In this document: positions 3,093-35,025 of the stretch, one piece after another
Numbering within the stretch: position 1 is the stretch's first letter
Layout of the letters: every line of letters starts with the position of its first letter
Assembly: GCA_016191845.1 (NCBI GenBank)
Contig: JACPVF010000007.1
Coordinates: forward strand, 496,001-560,000
Length of the DNA stretch: 64,000 nucleotides
From: Chloroflexota bacterium
GTDB taxonomy: Bacteria; Chloroflexota; Anaerolineae; Anaerolineales; Villigracilaceae
Direction of reading: 5' to 3'
The notes under the pieces: generated by a model
Database searches by the model: none
The model's input: the letters and a program-made list of their open reading frames with translations, nothing else
Told to the model about the DNA's origin: nothing
Made by a program: the position numbers and the translations under genes

Positions 3093-3899
3093 TCAATCCG
3101 AGCCTTGCGGCGCCCTCGCCCGAGACGGGGTCGTGGAGACGGCCGTCGCCGCAGGGACGGGAACGGGACGGGCGGCCGGGGCAGGTCGTGGCTGCGGTTT
3201 CTGCGGGAAGAGCTTGTCCGCGGCGCTGGCCAGGATGCGGTACAGTAACAGGAAGAGCAGGCTGCCGGCCGAGAGCCAGTAGAATTTCTGCACCCAGTCC
3301 AGGCCCGAGTCGGTGCCGGTGAAGATGCCGTGGAAGAGTCCCATCAGGTACATGGCAAAACTGGCGTAGTGGATGACGCGCCACGTCTTCTGGCCGATGC
3401 CCTGCCGCACGTAGAAACTGAGCGTCACCAGCAGCCAGACGTAAAATCCCAGTTGGCCGATGCCCACCCAGAACGGACGATAGGTGGTGGTGGAGAAAGG
3501 CATCAGCACCTGCACGAAGGTGAAACCGATGTAATGGTCGCCCAGCAGGATCAACGCGTGGAAGATGGCGAAGGCGATGCCCAGCAAATTGACGTACTCA
3601 TGGATGGCAAAGGCCGCGGGCGCTCCGGGCCACAGGCGCGCCATCTTGTTGGTGATGCTCAGGCCGAGCGCCATCGAAACCCACAGCAGGCTGATCGAGG
3701 CGAAGGCCGTGGCGCGCGCCAGGTACCAGAAGACCTTGGGGGCTTCACCGCCCAGCGAGAAGGCCATGTTGGGCAGCCAGCTCGGCAGCACCAGCACCGC
3801 CAGCAGCAGGCCGGCCGTCAGCGCGAGCAGGAAGGTGAGAAAGGTCTGGAGGTTGACCGAGGATTCCATCTCGGCGGGTTCGGGGAGATTTGCGGGCAT
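3093..3899 (-). CDS. Ferric reductase-like transmembrane protein
   Basis: A 268-residue integral membrane protein with about six helices, similar to the ferric-reductase/YedZ haem-b family. Likely haem ligands are the paired histidines in IHEYVNLLGIAFAIFHALIL and RVIHYASFAMYLMGLFHGIF. After the last helix comes a Pro/Ala-rich basic tail, with no flavin or NAD domain, so it must pass electrons to or from another protein. It lies downstream of an ApbE gene in the same orientation, separated by a repeat element at 3917-4029. The partner is not identifiable. Confidence 0.75.
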   Translation of the reverse strand: MPANLPEPAEMESSVNLQTFLTFLLALTAGLLLAVLVLPSWLPNMAFSLGGEAPKVFWYLARATAFASISLLWVSMALGLSITNKMARLWPGAPAAFAIHEYVNLLGIAFAIFHALILLGDHYIGFTFVQVLMPFSTTTYRPFWVGIGQLGFYVWLLVTLSFYVRQGIGQKTWRVIHYASFAMYLMGLFHGIFTGTDSGLDWVQKFYWLSAGSLLFLLLYRILASAADKLFPQKPQPRPAPAARPVPVPAATAVSTTPSRARAPQGSD

Positions 3900-29238: not shown

Positions 29239-29922
29239 CTATTCGGAAGCAGGCTTGGGTTGGGACTTCGGCCGGAGCAACGGGAGCAGGAATCGGTCCC
29301 GCAGTGAGGCCAGGGCACGGCGAACAGGCGGCAGGCGGAAGATCAGCAGGAACAGGAGCACCAGTCCATAGACCAACGGGCGGACAATGTCGCCCTGCAG
29401 AGCAAGAAAGGTGCCCTTCTTGCTCCAGCCATAATGCAGGATCACCAATGGGGCAATAAAGTAGATGACTTGGTGCAGGCGTTTCCAGTTCTTCTTCAGA
29501 CGGACTTTCCACACATCGAAGGAGGTGATGGCCAACGGGACAAGCAACAGGAAGGCCGTCATGCCAACGATGATGTAGGGCTTTTGGAACACGGTCTGGA
29601 TGATGAGACTCCAGGCCAGGCCGAAATCCAGGTCGAGGAAGATAAGAACGTGGATGGTGGCGTACAGGAAGGCGTACAACCCCAGGGCACGGCGGCGTTT
29701 GAGCGGTTCCTTCCAGCCGAAGAGGGTGTTCATCGGCGTGCAAGCCAGTGAGAGCAGCAACAAGGTGACGGCGGCGCGACCCGTGCGCTGTTCCATGGCC
29801 TGGATGGGATTGGCCGTCAGGTTATCCGTCAGGAAATCGAAGATGAGGCGCGCAAGGGGAAACCATGCGCCGACGTGCATGATGATCTGGAGCGGGGTAT
29901 AGCGTTGAAAAAAGTTTTTCAT
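29239..29922 (-). CDS. msrQ: MsrQ-like haem-binding membrane subunit
   Basis: A 227-residue protein with about six helices, of the MsrQ/YedZ family that feeds quinol electrons to MsrP. Family features are NPIQAMEQRTGRAAVTLLLL, LACTPMNTLFGWKEPLKRRR and LGLYAFLYATIHVLIFLDLD; a haem His lies in LKKNWKRLHQVIYFIAPLVI. The start MKNFFQ at 29922 is preferred; a start 18 nt upstream is possible. It lies 74 bp after msrP in the same operon. Confidence 0.9.
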   Translation of the reverse strand: MKNFFQRYTPLQIIMHVGAWFPLARLIFDFLTDNLTANPIQAMEQRTGRAAVTLLLLSLACTPMNTLFGWKEPLKRRRALGLYAFLYATIHVLIFLDLDFGLAWSLIIQTVFQKPYIIVGMTAFLLLVPLAITSFDVWKVRLKKNWKRLHQVIYFIAPLVILHYGWSKKGTFLALQGDIVRPLVYGLVLLFLLIFRLPPVRRALASLRDRFLLPLLRPKSQPKPASE

Positions 29923-29996
29923 GCTGGCTGGTTGGGGCACGACGTATCATGCAGAGACCGAATTGGATCCTCACTGCCTGCCGCGCCCATGCTCAA

Positions 29997-30950
29997 CTAA
30001 TACTCTACCATCAAATCCATGCCATCGTACAGGTGTGCGACCTGTTCGCCGTAGCCGTTGAAAGGCAGGGTGGCGCGGCGGGAGAACTCGCCGATGCGGC
30101 GTTCGGTGGTCTGCGACCAGCGAGGATGAGAACGGGCGGGGTTGACGTTGGAATAGAAGCCGTATTCATCGGGGGCCAGGTCATTCCAGAAGGTGGCCGG
30201 TTGCTCGGCAACCAATTCGATCTTGACGATGGACTTGATCGACTTGAAACCGTACTTCCACGGCACCACCAGTCGGATGGGCGCGCCGTTCGGGTTGGGC
30301 ATCGGCTCACCGTACAGACCCGTGGCGAGGAGGGTCAGGTCGTTCATGGCTTCATCGAGGCGCAGACCTTCCTGATAGGGCCAGGGGTAGAACCCCGATT
30401 TCTGCCCGGGCATCTCGTCGGGGCGATAAACCGTCTCGAAACGGACGAACTTCGCGTCAGAGGTCGGTTCGACCTCCTTGAGCAGGCTGGCCAGGGTAAA
30501 GCCCGTCCACGGGATGACCATGCTCCAGGCTTCCACGCAGCGCAGGCGATAGATGCGTTCCCCCTGCGTGAATTTCTTGAGCAGGTCTTCGATGCCGTAG
30601 GTCTTGGGGTTATTGACCAGACCGCCCACCTCCACGGTCCATGGGCTGGAGGCGAACTTCTGCGACATGGGCGCGACGCCCTGCTTGTCGGTGGTGAACT
30701 CGTAGTAATTGTTGTAGTTGGTAATATCCTCGAAGGTGTTGACAGGATCACCCAATTCATCGGTCTGACCGTTTGCCTGGGGCGCAGATGCCGACGGGGT
30801 GGCGGTCACCTGTGGGGCGCAGGCCGCCAATAGGGCCGAGCCAGCTGCAAGTCCCGCAGCCTTGATAAAGTCACGCCGCGAGAGATACAGTGATTTGGGG
30901 GTGATCTCAGAAGGGAGAACGGGAACGGATTTATATTTGTTGTCCATCAT
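29997..30950 (-). CDS. msrP: MsrP-like molybdopterin methionine sulfoxide reductase
   Basis: A 317-residue periplasmic enzyme that reduces methionine sulfoxide in envelope proteins. The twin-arginine signal is SRRDFIKAAGLAAGSALLA with a lipobox-like AACAP. The Moco ligand cysteine is in YRLRCVEAWSMVIPWTGF; VPWKYGFKSIKSIVKIELV is also conserved. It starts 6 bp after the stop of the selenocysteine thioredoxin gene and precedes msrQ, so all three are probably one transcript. Confidence 0.93.
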   Translation of the reverse strand: MMDNKYKSVPVLPSEITPKSLYLSRRDFIKAAGLAAGSALLAACAPQVTATPSASAPQANGQTDELGDPVNTFEDITNYNNYYEFTTDKQGVAPMSQKFASSPWTVEVGGLVNNPKTYGIEDLLKKFTQGERIYRLRCVEAWSMVIPWTGFTLASLLKEVEPTSDAKFVRFETVYRPDEMPGQKSGFYPWPYQEGLRLDEAMNDLTLLATGLYGEPMPNPNGAPIRLVVPWKYGFKSIKSIVKIELVAEQPATFWNDLAPDEYGFYSNVNPARSHPRWSQTTERRIGEFSRRATLPFNGYGEQVAHLYDGMDLMVEY

Positions 30951-30956
30951 CAACCT

Positions 30957-31469
30957 CTATTCGTTTTCTGCCAGAAGGGTCTGAATGGCCGCTTCGGTCT
31001 CTGCATAGGAGCCTTCGCCGATGTGAACATAGCGAATGCGGCCTTGTTTATCGATCAGATATAGGGTGGGCCAGTAGCGGTTGTGATAGGCCCGCCAGGT
31101 GTCACCATGGTTATCCTGTGCCACGGCGTATTCGATGCCTTCACGCGCGACGGCCGCTTTCAAATTATCCAAGTCGGCTTCGTAACCAAACTCGGGATAG
31201 TGATTACCGATCACAACCAGACCCTGGTCCTTGTACTTACTATGCCATTCCCTCAACGAGGGAATCACATGCTGACAATTAATTCAGCCAAAGGTCCACA
31301 TATCGAGCAGCACCACCTTGCCACGCAGGTCGGCCAGCCGTAACGGCGCATCGACATTCAGCCAGGTATCACTGATCAACTCGGGAGCAGGCCCAAGGTC
31401 TGAGAGTGAAGAGCGGGGGGAGCATCCCGTCAGCACAATCAGGAGGAAGCCAAGCAGAAATCGTCTCAT
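30957..31469 (-). CDS. Selenocysteine-containing TlpA/thioredoxin-like lipoprotein
   Basis: Read through an in-frame TGA at 31284-31286, this gene gives a 170-residue TlpA/redoxin-like lipoprotein. A signal peptide ends in the lipobox LTGC (Cys16). The active site reads [13 protein letters not shown] (Sec62, Cys65), exactly the position of the first Cys in the family's usual CINC motif. The cis-Pro loop is YWPTLYLID and the fold continues to the normal end. Without read-through the product would be 61 residues and useless. A SECIS-like hairpin lies 18 nt after the TGA. A point mutation to a pseudogene is the main alternative. First gene of the operon with msrP and msrQ, probably reducing oxidised envelope thiols. 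Confidence 0.85.
31242..31270 (-). promoter_or_regulatory. Candidate bacterial SECIS hairpin
   Basis: In the mRNA sense, ATTCCCTC pairs with GAGGGAAT over a GTT loop. Below a G-G mismatch the stem continues as ATGT with GCAT. The stem starts 18 nt and the apical loop 26 nt after the TGA, and the first loop base is G. These properties agree with the published description of bacterial SECIS elements (loop about 16-37 nt after UGA, G early in the loop). Confidence 0.8.
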
Positions 31470-31492: not shown

Positions 31493-31529
31493 ATTGTAAA
31501 AAATCTTCCTTACGAAAGAATTACGAAAG
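31493..31529 (-). promoter_or_regulatory. Promoter with OmpR-type direct repeats, selenoprotein operon
   Basis: On the minus strand, two copies of CTTTCGTAA (31529-31521 and 31518-31510) recur with an 11-bp period. They are followed after 10 bp by a -10 box TACAAT (31498-31493). No -35 hexamer is present; the repeats occupy that position, as in PhoB/OmpR-activated promoters. The layout matches the site at 33527-33573. Confidence 0.65.
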
Positions 31530-31542
31530 ACTGAGAAGTTGA

Positions 31543-32766
31543 TTAAGGAAGAGTAAAGGAGAACGTGGCGCCCTGTCCTGGTTCGCTGACGACCTGCATG
31601 CTCCCGCCGTGCGCTTCGACAATGCCGCGCGCAATGGCCAGCCCCAAGCCCGCCCCACCCGACCGTCGGCTGCGGGATTTTTCACCGCGATAGAACCTTT
31701 CGAAGAGATGCGGAAGATCTTCAGGGCGGATACCCTCGCCCGTGTCGCTCACGCGGATTTCGACACCCGTGCCTACCCGTCTCGCCGTGACCATCACCTG
31801 TCCGCCAGCCGGTGTGTGCCGCAGCGCATTGCTGACCAGATTATTGAGCACGCGTCCGATACGCTGCGTATCCATGAGCACGGGATCGATATTCGGGTCG
31901 GCATCTCCTGCCAGTTGCACAGATCGTTGCACCGCCAATGCCGAGAACGATTCAAGTGTGTCAGAGATCAAATCAGTCAGAGACGATTCAGCACAGTCGA
32001 GCGGCAAGCCGCCTGCATCGAGTTGAGCCATCTGGAACAGGTCATCAATCAGCACAGAGAGGGCGCGTACATCACGCTGGGCGGTCTGCAGATAACGGCT
32101 GACGGTCTGCGGCTCGTCCACCACGCCGTCGGCCAGGGCCTCCAGAATGGCGCGGATCGAGGCCAGCGGCGTTTGCAGGTCGTGCCCCACCCAGGCGATC
32201 AGATCGGCGCGTAGATGTTCGAGTTCACGCTGTTTGCGGTCGGCTGCCTCGAGACGGGCTGCCATCTGGTTGAAGGCTTCGGCCAGGGCCGCCACCTCGT
32301 CGCGCCCGTTGACGGGGACACGTGTGTCGAGCTGCCCGTCTGCCAATCGTTCGGCAGCTTCCTTCAACAAGTGTACGCGCTCTGTGATGGTGGTCGAGAG
32401 GAAATATCCAAGCGCCATCGCCATGCCGCCCGCAAAGATCAGTAGCACAATGGCCAACAACAGGTCATGTTGACTGGCAAACATCATCTGCGCCGAGAAC
32501 CAAACATTGAAAAAGGTCAGCAGGCTGGATAAGGCATATCCACCCAACAAAGTCCAGCGCATGGAGGAGGAACGCGTCAACCAGCCAAGGCGGTAGGCGC
32601 CATAGCCCGCCATCGCCGAGGCCAGTGCAGTGACGCCCAAAAAGAGCGCCATCAGACCCAATTCGACCAACGGCGGGGCCATCATCATCTTGAAGATGAC
32701 CAACGACACGGCCACGATCGATAAAATTCCAAGAGCAAAGCGGATGGAGAGGGAAGATGCCTTCAT
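31543..32766 (-). CDS. Sensor histidine kinase (HAMP-type)
   Basis: A 407-residue kinase with about four N-terminal helices (residues 8-140) and almost no extracytoplasmic loop. Then come a HAMP domain (LADGQLDTRVPVNGRDEVAA), the phosphoacceptor box GHDLQTPLASIRA, the N-box NLVSNALRHTP and G boxes DTGEGIRPEDL and GGAGLGLAIA. The short external part suggests a membrane-borne or redox signal. It overlaps the response-regulator stop by 4 nt. Its operon ends close upstream of the selenoprotein promoter. Confidence 0.92.
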   Translation of the reverse strand: MKASSLSIRFALGILSIVAVSLVIFKMMMAPPLVELGLMALFLGVTALASAMAGYGAYRLGWLTRSSSMRWTLLGGYALSSLLTFFNVWFSAQMMFASQHDLLLAIVLLIFAGGMAMALGYFLSTTITERVHLLKEAAERLADGQLDTRVPVNGRDEVAALAEAFNQMAARLEAADRKQRELEHLRADLIAWVGHDLQTPLASIRAILEALADGVVDEPQTVSRYLQTAQRDVRALSVLIDDLFQMAQLDAGGLPLDCAESSLTDLISDTLESFSALAVQRSVQLAGDADPNIDPVLMDTQRIGRVLNNLVSNALRHTPAGGQVMVTARRVGTGVEIRVSDTGEGIRPEDLPHLFERFYRGEKSRSRRSGGAGLGLAIARGIVEAHGGSMQVVSEPGQGATFSFTLP

Positions 32767-33455
32767 GGTTCGAATTTGTACCCCACGCCCCACACGGTCA
32801 GCAAGCGCACAGGTTTGGAAGGATCGCGTTCGATCTTTTCGCGCAAACGGCGGACATGTACCGTGACCGTGCCCGCATCGATGTATTCCGCGCCGCCCCA
32901 CACACGTTCGAGCAACTGCTCGCGCGTGAAGACCTGGCGCGGATGACGGGCCAGCAGATAAAGCACGTCGAATTCCTTGGCGGTCAACTCAACGAGCGAT
33001 GCCGCCACCGTGACCGTGCGGCTGCGCGGATCGATGAGCAATCCCTCGAACTCCAACGCGCGCTCCGCCTCGACCTCAGCCTGTTCCCGTTTCGTGCGGC
33101 GCAGCACCGCCCGCACGCGGCTGACCAATTCCTGCGGGCTGAACGGCTTGATGACGTAATCGTCCGCGCCCATTTCGAGGCCCGCAATGCGATCGATCTC
33201 CTCGCGGCGCGCCGTCAGCATGATGACCGGCACATCGGAGCGCTCGCGCAGCCAGCGGGTCAGCGAGAGGCCATCGATCTCGGGCAGCATCAGATCCATC
33301 ACCACCAGGTCGGGGATCCCGCGCTCGAGCAGGTTCATGGCTTGCTTTCCGTCTGCGGCGGTCTGGATGCTGTAGCCCGCCCTCTGTAGGTATAGACCAA
33401 CCACCTCAGCGATGCTCGGTTCATCTTCCACAATCAGGATGTATTTCTCATTCAC
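32763..33455 (-). CDS. OmpR-family response regulator
   Basis: A 230-residue regulator. The receiver has EDEPSIAEVV, the phospho-Asp in VVMDLMLPEIDG and the K-containing YVIKPFSPQEL. A C-terminal winged helix follows (LTAKEFDVLYLLARHPRQVF, then YIDAGTVTVHVRRLREKIE). It is coupled to the kinase by ATGA. Repeats of the OmpR/PhoB type upstream of both neighbouring thioredoxin genes are its likely targets. Confidence 0.94.
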   Translation of the reverse strand: MNEKYILIVEDEPSIAEVVGLYLQRAGYSIQTAADGKQAMNLLERGIPDLVVMDLMLPEIDGLSLTRWLRERSDVPVIMLTARREEIDRIAGLEMGADDYVIKPFSPQELVSRVRAVLRRTKREQAEVEAERALEFEGLLIDPRSRTVTVAASLVELTAKEFDVLYLLARHPRQVFTREQLLERVWGGAEYIDAGTVTVHVRRLREKIERDPSKPVRLLTVWGVGYKFEP

Positions 33456-33526: not shown

Positions 33527-33573
33527 TTCTGTAAGTATTCGGTAGGATTTCCTTAAGATGGACTTGCTATCAT
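33527..33573 (+). promoter_or_regulatory. Triple 11-bp-period repeats and -10 box, thioredoxin lipoprotein gene
   Basis: TTCTGTAAG (33527), TTCGGTAGG (33538) and TTCCTTAAG (33549) repeat with an exact 11-bp period. Ten bp later a -10 box TATCAT is at 33568-33573. No -35 is seen. A further half-match, TTTCTTACG, is at 33497. The divergent gene is the response regulator itself, so the region may also mediate autoregulation. Confidence 0.65.
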
Positions 33574-33605
33574 GTCGCCCATCAACTCACAAAGGAGACA
33601 ACCCA

Positions 33606-34304
33606 ATGAAATCCCGAAATATCCTGTTTTCCCTGCTGCTGGGCCTGAGCCTGGTGTTGGTCGCTTGCGGCACACCGTCCACGCCCGAGGCGATGATGGA
33701 CAAGCCGACCGCGGAAGTCATGATGGATAAACCGACTGAAGATCCCATGATGATGCACGAGACGGCCACCCCCAGTGCGGTGATGATGTACGACAACACC
33801 CCCACCCCTGAAGCCATGATGGACTCATCCTCTGGCGATGCCATGATGGAGTCCCCCGCCTGGTTCAGCGCGACCCTGACCAATGTCAACACAGGACAGA
33901 TGTTCTCGATCAATGATTTCAAGGGCAAGGTGGTGTTGGTCGAAACGATGGCAGTCTGGTGCTCAAACTGCCTCAAACAGCAGGGACAAGTCAAAGCCTT
34001 GCATGAGATGCTCGGCATGCGCGATGACTTCGTCAGCGTGGGCCTGGATATCGACCTGAACGAAAATGCCGACCAACTCAAGGGGTACGTATCAGACAAT
34101 GGGTTCGACTGGTATTACGCCGTGGCTCCGGCCGACGTGGCGCACGACATCGCCGCCCAATATGGCGACCAGTTTCTCAACCCGCCTTCCACTCCCATCG
34201 TGATCATCGACCGTCACGGCACGGCCCATCCGCTGCCCTTTGGCATCAAGAGCGCCGATGACCTGATGAAAGCCATCCAGCCTTACCTGGATGAAGGCAT
34301 GTAA
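33606..34304 (+). CDS. Thioredoxin-like lipoprotein with Met-Met repeats
   Basis: A 232-residue protein. A signal peptide ends in lipobox LVACG (Cys21). Residues 28-80 contain repeated Met-pair motifs (EAMMDKPT, EVMMDKPT, DPMMMHET, EAMMDSSS, DAMMESPA), a possible soft-metal (copper) binding segment. A TlpA-like redoxin domain follows with active site AVWCSNCLKQ and cis-Pro region NPPSTPIVIID. Anchored outside the membrane, it is probably reduced by the CcdA-like protein coded next. Confidence 0.85.
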   Translation: MKSRNILFSLLLGLSLVLVACGTPSTPEAMMDKPTAEVMMDKPTEDPMMMHETATPSAVMMYDNTPTPEAMMDSSSGDAMMESPAWFSATLTNVNTGQMFSINDFKGKVVLVETMAVWCSNCLKQQGQVKALHEMLGMRDDFVSVGLDIDLNENADQLKGYVSDNGFDWYYAVAPADVAHDIAAQYGDQFLNPPSTPIVIIDRHGTAHPLPFGIKSADDLMKAIQPYLDEGM

Positions 34305-34356: not shown

Positions 34357-35025
34357 ATGGAGACCATCCTCACTTCCCTCTCGATTGGATTGCTAGCCAC
34401 CACCAGCCCGTGCGTACTTCCCTTATACCCCGGGATCCTAGCCTATCTCAACGGCGGACAAAACAACCTGCGCGAAAAGCCAGGCCGCTATCTACTGGGC
34501 TTCTTCGTGCTGGCAGGCGTATTGACCATGATGCTGGCGTTGGGCGGGATTATTGCCTTGCTATCGATCTCGGTGGGACGGGCGCTCTCGGTTGTCATCC
34601 CGCTCGCTGACTTTCTCATTATCCTGCTGGGCGTGTTGTTGCTGTGCGATATCAACCCGTTCAAGCAATTGCCACAGGTGCAAGTGCCCATGCTCTCGCA
34701 TCCCTTCGTCAACGCATTTCTCTACGGCTTACTATATGGGCCTATTGTCCTGCCATGTTCGGGGCCGCTGGTGGTCAGCATCTTTGCACTCTCGCTGACA
34801 ACAGCAGAAGCCTTGAGCAAACTCACCATCTTCTTCTGGTTCGGGTTGGGATTCGGCCTGCCGCTGTTGGCTTTGTCCTTCCTTTCGGGAGCCGCACAGC
34901 GTTGGATCACCCGCCAATTCGCCATGTACACGCGGACGATCAATATCTTCAGCGGTCTGCTTTTGGTCGGGATCGGGGCGTACGATTTGTACGTGAATTG
35001 GGCTTTGATTGCAGCTTTTCTTTAG
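34357..35025 (+). CDS. CcdA/DsbD-like thiol electron transporter
   Basis: A 222-residue protein with six helices. The first helix has the reactive-cysteine context TSPCVLPLYPGILAY and the fourth has GPIVLPCSGPLVVSI, the paired cysteines of CcdA/DsbD that move electrons from cytoplasmic thioredoxin to envelope thioredoxins. Located after the thioredoxin lipoprotein, its probable client. Its last 77 bp overlap the end of the convergent GGDEF gene. Confidence 0.88.
   Translation: METILTSLSIGLLATTSPCVLPLYPGILAYLNGGQNNLREKPGRYLLGFFVLAGVLTMMLALGGIIALLSISVGRALSVVIPLADFLIILLGVLLLCDINPFKQLPQVQVPMLSHPFVNAFLYGLLYGPIVLPCSGPLVVSIFALSLTTAEALSKLTIFFWFGLGFGLPLLALSFLSGAAQRWITRQFAMYTRTINIFSGLLLVGIGAYDLYVNWALIAAFL

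Follow-up and report, generated by a model that had tools for sequence, protein, structure and literature searches.

We describe a gene, here labelled tlpU, that is predicted to encode a selenoprotein: a redoxin lipoprotein in which an in-frame UGA is read as selenocysteine (Sec). We put the probability of this reading at about 0.95, judging from sequence, because the genome carries the Sec machinery, because TGA is exchanged with Cys codons among relatives of the gene, and because a hairpin tracks the TGA. The wider proposition, that tlpU is both a selenoprotein and a member of an oxidant-repair cluster, we regard as highly probable. The features concerned (Table 1) lie in a 64,000-nucleotide stretch of DNA from a bacterium of the Chloroflexota, which we refer to as the window.

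Table 1. Features of the tlpU locus, with positions counted from the first nucleotide of the window
Feature	Position	Strand	Description or basis
tlpU (our own label), predicted Sec-containing redoxin lipoprotein	30957..31469	minus	170 aa, UGA = U62; Pfam, AlphaFold
UGA within the frame, predicted to encode selenocysteine (UINC motif)	31284..31286	minus	TGA/TGC/TGT exchange across relatives
Lipobox LTGC, residues 13-16	31422..31433	minus	Sequence
Bacterial SECIS hairpin	31247..31265	minus	8-bp stem, GUU loop starting 26 nt after UGA
Promoter box conserved in relatives, YGTAATCnTTTyGTAAGG, with paired GTAA units spaced by 11 bp	31507..31528	minus	Motif scan of relatives
TACAAT, probable -10 element	31493..31498	minus	TAnAAT after box in relatives
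msrP, molybdopterin methionine-sulfoxide reductase, Tat signal	29997..30953	minus	NF003767 456.7 bits (cut-off 207), TIGR01409, PF00174
msrQ, haem-binding membrane subunit	29239..29940	minus	NF003831 167.1 bits (cut-off 130)
Sensor histidine kinase, HAMP-HisKA-HATPase	31543..32901	minus	Pfam profile search
OmpR/PhoB-type response regulator	32763..33455	minus	PF00072, PF00486
tlp2, second redoxin-like protein, CSNC motif, divergent	33558..34304	plus	PF08534 24.1 bits, just below cut-off (26.6)
ccdA-like (DsbD_TM) membrane electron carrier	34357..35025	plus	PF02683 42.7 bits (cut-off 27.1)

The tlpU frame holds one TGA alone, within the motif MWTFG-U62-INC, at which ORF calling under translation table 11 splits the gene into frames of 61 and 103 aa. 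A first-pass annotation of this DNA had the coordinates right and had correctly seen a single frame on both flanks of the TGA; to this we add the strand, which is minus. The predicted protein opens with a lipoprotein signal ending in LTGC, which we take to be a lipobox, and continues into a redoxin domain whose TGA occupies the place of the first active-site Cys; relatives carry TGC or TGT there, in keeping with the U-I-N-C motif proposed at the outset. The claim that lipobox, cis-Pro loop and full length are intact likewise holds: in an alignment of 53 sequences (U displayed as C), P134 of YWP, at the cis-Pro position, is nearly invariant, and N38, W58, C/U62, N64, C65, G88, H90, P92, E93, E97, D119 and W133 are invariant.

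Profile and fold searches place tlpU among redoxins with a TlpA/ResA-like thioredoxin fold. Both AhpC-TSA (PF00578, 53.1 bits against a cut-off of 26) and Redoxin (PF08534, 39.7 against 26.6) exceed their Pfam cut-offs, and no NCBIfam model for the protein attains its own cut-off. We could file the gene neither as TlpA (NF047696, 26.3 against 230) nor as ResA (NF002854, 55.9 against 170), since these scores are far under the curated cut-offs, and we therefore call it TlpA/ResA-like only. The AlphaFold model (mean pLDDT 93.3) finds its best PDB match in the C-terminal domain of DipZ (2hyx, E 4.9e-20, TMq 0.83, 47% identity), followed, within the top 50 fold hits, by NHLRC2 (6gc1) and SOQ1 (7djk), with ResA and pneumococcal Etrx2 (the latter at E 1.5e-11) among the further matches. 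DipZ is also the top sequence match (phmmer against PDB sequences, E 4.3e-41), with SOQ1 and NHLRC2 sharing the first ranks. The earlier label 'TlpA-like' thus stands as a description of the fold and fails as a statement of the nearest group, which is that of the DipZ/NHLRC2/SOQ1 redoxins.

Relatives of tlpU were sought in 396 genomes of the window's class, 291 of which match at 1e-10 (weak paralogues included), and these were joined by 69 loci from a contig search and 60 fetched stretches. The stretches were hand-picked (chiefly hits interrupted by a stop in frame, with some Cys hits added as a contrast), and the TGA:Cys proportions are therefore not frequencies. At the codon of interest the first alignment (105 rows) has TGA in 30, TGC in 53, TGT in 20 and CGT in one, with one row uncovered, and the second (60 rows) has TGA in 45, TGC in 9 and TGT in 6. 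Pooled, with omission of L096 (codon uncovered) and L182-L184 (repeats of L037, L027 and L028), the 161 relatives and paralogues comprise 72 TGA, 62 TGC and 26 TGT rows (88 Cys) and one CGT row; six of the Cys rows are paralogues from the tlpU genome itself at ~30% identity (L021-L026), and certain species are apparently present twice (e.g., L029/L058, L031/L059, L036/L074, L044/L084). At least 63 of the 72 TGA rows are distinct in their downstream sequence, and both flanks of the TGA are conserved across all 72. Every stop within the two alignments is a TGA at the Sec codon, except one stop in L124. The first-pass annotation had suggested aligning homologues at the TGA for Cys/Sec exchange, and that exchange, TGA against TGC or TGT, is what the rows display: in tlpU the UGA aligns with a conserved Cys, and in other species UGA occurs with Sec/Cys exchange.

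In these samples, every Sec form that we saw belongs to the class of the window or to a record that fits it: all 27 other-class matches among the 30 of 201 genomes that match at 1e-40 in a draw across the phylum are without a stop, and the ten TGA rows from the contig search are all titled Chloroflexi, Anaerolineae, Anaerolineales or Anaerolineaceae. Plasmid records yielded 1090 matches to tlpU, all below 60% identity. Contigs whose titles name Diapherotrites and Woesearchaeota (L108 and L119) also bear the redoxin, with Cys.

A tree of 144 of the 161 rows (at least 40% identity and 100 aa, repeats entered once, the trait residue masked), built by a 'quick' method that flagged long branches for L089 and the NHLRC2-like rows, requires at least 20 changes between Sec and Cys, seven of them forced by supported branches. 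On this tree L057 (TGT) adjoins L027 (TGA), and L057 keeps a perfect hairpin; L168 (TGT) likewise retains a SECIS-like hairpin. These two probably represent recent Sec-to-Cys changes that left a fossil SECIS, and the hairpin of one further Cys row (L104) is probably there by chance. Also of interest are three rows that resemble long Sec proteins of the NHLRC2/SOQ1 type: L147, L151 and L154 (TGA at 3191, 3031 and 3116 in match orientation) have read-through frames of 680, 623 and 545 aa with the motifs YCUMNC, FCUINC and YGUINC, respectively. L148-L150, L152, L153 and L155-L159 are likely further examples; NHL repeats in these proteins were assigned by eye, not by profile.

The hairpin begins 18 nt past the TGA, where ATTCCCTC (31265-31258) and GAGGGAAT (31254-31247) enclose a GTT loop (31257-31255), and the earlier description of it (8-bp stem, GTT loop, start at 18 nt, loop at 26 nt) is exact. 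The bSECIS model, as set out in the accessible text of one 2026 catalogue (PMC13188914), calls for a stem 4-16 bp long, a loop of 3-9 nt with G among its two opening nucleotides (most often GG or GU), a distance of 16-37 nt between UGA and loop, and a minimum free energy (MFE) of -7.5 kcal/mol or lower; the tlpU hairpin lies within each of these bounds (loop 3, stem 8, GUU, 26 nt, -17.8 kcal/mol over 50 nt). Folding the 60 nt after the TGA, as had been proposed, gave a SECIS-like hairpin that goes with TGA across rows; the energy is -18.4 kcal/mol (z -3.58) and none of 200 shuffles is as low. When codons of the window gene were shuffled so as to preserve the peptide, the hairpin score was reached in 14 of 5000 trials and the 50-nt energy in 0 of 1000.

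How far such a hairpin discriminates depends on its definition. A loose hairpin (stem of at least 4 bp, spacing 16-37 nt) is present after the codon in 70 of 72 TGA rows and in 50 of the 87 Cys rows; since 1299 of 2025 arbitrary TGA triplets in the window satisfy it as well, this looser definition carries little information by itself; the MFE limit is satisfied by 71/72 TGA rows and also by 67/87 Cys rows. A strict hairpin (at least 6 bp, loop start at 23-26 nt, score at least 14, a threshold set after inspecting the rows) follows 62/72 TGA rows, 3/87 Cys rows and 41/2025 TGA triplets on both strands of the window. L122 (CGT) and L123 (<60 nt downstream) are omitted from these counts, leaving 87 Cys rows that each extend 60 nt past the codon. 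Rows of at least 50% identity have the strict hairpin in 55 of 59 Sec and 3 of 67 Cys cases, and those of 38-50% identity in 7 of 12 and 0 of 14. The ten TGA rows without it are L073, L075, L160, L143, L149, L150, L151, L155, L157 and L159; L073 and L075 are close TGA relatives that perhaps have another SECIS form, and L160 is a partial match.

The stem itself covaries. Among rows of at least 50% identity, the six innermost pairs can form in 43 of the 51 distinct Sec sequences as against 3 of the 63 distinct Cys sequences. Pairs 3, 6, 7 and 8 carry compensatory substitutions, both halves of the stem differing while pairing is kept, and the loop is GTT or GGT in 44 of the 51 distinct Sec rows. 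At 38-50% identity the window's stem register is found in 0 of 12 Sec rows, the register being shifted where a hairpin is present. The hairpin is not forced by the peptide, because Cys relatives with an identical or near-identical peptide (L078, L036) spell the region differently and because codon-preserving shuffles seldom match it (for six Sec rows, the observed score was matched in 2 to 16 of 5000). Fold energy is less decisive than hairpin score in such shuffles: the number folding as well, per 1000, is 401 for L035, 116 for L145, 76 for L048, 16 for L037, 9 for L050 and 0 for L020. Across the seven supported independent pairs on the tree, the hairpin accompanies Sec in a mean of 5.3 and the opposite association occurs in none, a result that alone is not significant (sign test, median p 0.0625).

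The genome examined (4.63 Mb in 18 contigs, 99.17% complete) contains all four of the selA, selB, selC and selD genes for which the first-pass annotation had proposed a search. The tRNA-Sec gene (selC) scores 70.4 bits against a cut-off of 47 and has the anticodon TCA according to ARAGORN; SelB (326 bits), SelD (348 bits) and SelA (532 bits) each exceed the curated cut-off. selD (L017, C11:231350-232282) has an in-frame TGA of its own, followed at a spacing of 33 nt by a 7-bp hairpin (GGCGCAG-GTT-CTGCGCC) with the same GTT loop as in tlpU, and it served as our positive control in place of a Sec formate dehydrogenase, for which we found no match over cut-off in the genome and no in-frame stop in the 10 matches listed. 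We rejected the presence of selA as a discriminating test: it is uninformative because nearly all sampled genomes of the class carry the gene (64/70 with a close tlpU match, 57/64 with a weak match or none). The selA-less genomes with a close match have the TGA form in four cases (G283, G315, G353 and G393, 78-86% complete) and the Cys form in two (G184 and G301, 93% complete).

Other fates of the UGA fit these data poorly. If it were an ordinary stop, or the mark of a pseudogene or an assembly error, the protein would end at residue 61, as the two ORFs called under table 11 imply; we consider this very improbable, given that 72 rows carry TGA at this one codon between conserved flanks (at least 63 of them distinct downstream), that the hairpin covaries and that the Sec machinery is complete. 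Less probable again is decoding as another amino acid, through general recoding or leaky read-through, in favour of which we found nothing: the genes around tlpU are unbroken under table 11, the exchange is with Cys codons only, bar the single CGT row, and the genome has a tRNA-Sec with a TCA anticodon.

The predicted selenoprotein gene tlpU lies on the minus strand in the order response regulator, histidine kinase, tlpU, msrP, msrQ, with tlp2 and the ccdA-like gene diverging on the plus strand. As the first-pass annotation had it, the setting is an msrPQ operon, both genes lying beside tlpU, adjacent to one another, with model scores above cut-off. The true start of msrP may be a few codons inside the listed ORF, and that of the histidine kinase ORF may have been placed too far upstream. 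The five-gene order recurs in close relatives of either form, and selenium is not essential to the operon because Cys forms keep it. Divergent tlp2-ccdA genes occur in 12 of 17 rows with kinase, msrP and at least 4 kb upstream (manual count). Among rows of at least 50% identity with enough flank, msrP is next to the tlp gene in 12/58 Sec and 22/62 Cys rows, and a kinase precedes it in 13/53 and 17/65; most Sec rows, the remoter ones, have neighbours other than msrPQ.

Upstream of tlpU we found a conserved promoter box, probably a response-regulator site. The scan covered 71 rows (L020-L124, at least 55% identity, enough upstream sequence) at a score threshold of 15, which is reached in 20 of the 26 rows where kinase and msrP both adjoin the gene and in 0 of 45 others (0/7 with msrP but no kinase, 0/3 with kinase only, 0/35 with neither). 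The six kinase and msrP rows without the box are L034, L035, L072, L077, L081 and L083, and where msrP occurs without the kinase (L032, L033, L066, L070 and others) the box is degenerate or absent. Seventeen of the 20 box rows built the matrix (leave-one-out), after the motif had already been seen, and two of the three outside it resemble species already in it. A link between the box and the adjacent response regulator is likely but unproven, because the matrix rows overlap the scored rows and 6 of 26 miss the box. In the window, the box before tlpU scores 31.3 and the runner-up 8.7. A box shared with tlp2-ccdA has no support, the scores upstream of the divergent tlp2 being 0.2-0.3; a weak GTAA/GGTAG repeat is visible by eye at 33527-33548.

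Among characterized proteins, the C-terminal thioredoxin-like domain of Mycobacterium tuberculosis DipZ (2hyx/5cyy) is the best match to tlpU in both sequence and fold. DipZ has a CcdA-like membrane part fused to its redoxin domain, and its active site uses Cys. The tlpU product, in contrast, is a stand-alone lipoprotein of 170 aa with a predicted Sec, and CcdA is encoded by a separate gene nearby; the likeness is to the redoxin domain alone. NHLRC2 and SOQ1 are next best, and tlpU is without their NHL repeats. Some relatives in the window's class differ from tlpU in joining a thioredoxin domain with Sec to a long, repeat-like C-terminus.

As a UxxC protein with a thioredoxin-fold redoxin domain, tlpU resembles several catalogued selenoproteins: 'Redoxin family protein' (PF08534), 'Thiol-disulfide isomerase-like protein' (cd02966) and 'Prx-like thiol:disulfide oxidoreductase' (PF00578) in one catalogue (PMC13188914), and 'Prx-like 3, pfam08534, UxxC' in an ocean survey (PMC2398784), as both are described in the text available. 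Compared by description, tlpU may fall within a catalogue entry such as 'Redoxin family protein' (HEU0032618.1 / MBA3499694.1). The accessible text of PMC13188914 makes no mention of MsrP, DipZ, NHL, Chloroflexi or Chloroflexota, and its operon section names no msrPQ.

Two known systems share parts with the cluster. The available portions of PMC3914527 and PMC3914529 describe a pneumococcal route in which SpMsrAB2 is reduced by lipoproteins of thioredoxin fold, themselves supplied by CcdA proteins. This Etrx1/Etrx2-CcdA-SpMsrAB2 pathway of Streptococcus pneumoniae resembles the locus in combining a thioredoxin-fold lipoprotein, CcdA and an extracytoplasmic methionine-sulfoxide reductase; it differs in that Sec is unreported in those portions and the reductase is MsrAB, whereas at our locus CcdA and redoxins, one with a predicted Sec, adjoin the molybdoenzyme MsrP, which with MsrQ occupies the place of MsrAB. 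In E. coli, chlorine stress switches on msrPQ through the two-component system HprSR, with MsrQ acting as the partner of MsrP (PMC9302797, from the text available). There, too, a two-component system accompanies msrPQ (hprRS / hiuH-msrPQ), although that text names hiuH in the operon and no redoxin. By analogy, the tlpU cluster appears to combine parts like those of E. coli hprRS-msrPQ and of pneumococcal CcdA-Etrx-MsrAB2.

We envisage that tRNA-Sec, carried by SelB and directed by the hairpin 19-37 nt downstream, would insert Sec at the tlpU UGA. The product would be a lipid-anchored redoxin on the outward-facing side of the membrane with a U-I-N-C active site, in which Sec62 would attack and Cys65 resolve. 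Its promoter is probably activated by the adjacent two-component system, jointly with msrPQ, as the conserved box suggests. Under envelope oxidative stress MsrPQ would reduce methionine sulfoxide with electrons delivered via MsrQ, and the tlpU protein would reduce disulfides, sulfenic acids or peroxides of exported proteins, its own electrons perhaps passing from the cytoplasm through the neighbouring CcdA and Tlp2. This exact role, that of a selenol/thiol reductase anchored to the membrane, induced alongside MsrPQ and kept reduced by CcdA/Tlp2, we put forward tentatively, at somewhat short of even odds; the 'more reactive envelope reductase' of the first-pass annotation likewise stays a conjecture.

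Two other roles deserve weighing. The selenoprotein might act chiefly as a selenol peroxidase, on peroxide or hypohalous acid, instead of as a protein-disulfide reductase: AhpC-TSA is its top Pfam match (53.1 bits), the operon is like an oxidant-stress operon, and Sec at the attacking position fits peroxide chemistry in general. We think this unlikely, in that the closest solved folds are DipZ, NHLRC2 and SOQ1, then ResA and Etrx2 (top 50 fold hits), and that the motif is UxxC whereas the one given for Sec peroxiredoxin in the available catalogue text is TxxU (PMC13188914). Direct electron donation to MsrP, on the pattern of Etrx1/Etrx2 and SpMsrAB2, would agree with the makeup of the cluster, in which a methionine-sulfoxide reductase lies with CcdA and a pair of thioredoxin-fold proteins, the same kinds of parts as in CcdA-Etrx-MsrAB2; it appears less likely still, for MsrQ, the partner of the molybdoenzyme MsrP, occurs here and, as reported in the text available, is required in E. 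coli (PMC9302797).

Standard-code ORF calling splits the gene, and its phylum is seldom mentioned in the selenoprotein literature that we searched. As the first-pass annotation had noted, UxxC thioredoxin-like selenoproteins are known; a selenoprotein in an msrPQ operon was not encountered in open-access titles and the opening parts of abstracts, among the matches listed. In the same literature, selenoprotein with DipZ returned nothing, and selenocysteine with NHLRC2 only another subject. As far as these sources go, UxxC redoxin selenoproteins are a known kind, and the msrPQ-operon setting is what differs. tlpU adds an extracytoplasmic selenoprotein that gene order links to methionine repair.

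We give about an even chance to a broader proposal: that the window's class (probably Anaerolineae) has a distinct family of UINC redoxin selenoproteins in the DipZ/NHLRC2 group, long NHLRC2-like selenoproteins included; that one branch is the selenium-dependent arm of an envelope repair regulon under two-component control (redoxin, MsrPQ and CcdA); and that Sec and Cys have often been swapped within the operon, leaving fossil SECIS elements behind. Because both forms share the operon and two Cys genes keep the hairpin, the relatives allow a direct comparison of Sec with Cys, and the tlpU set offers a view of selenocysteine gain and loss. If the proposal is true, the operon would be a natural series in which to ask why selenium is kept or dropped.
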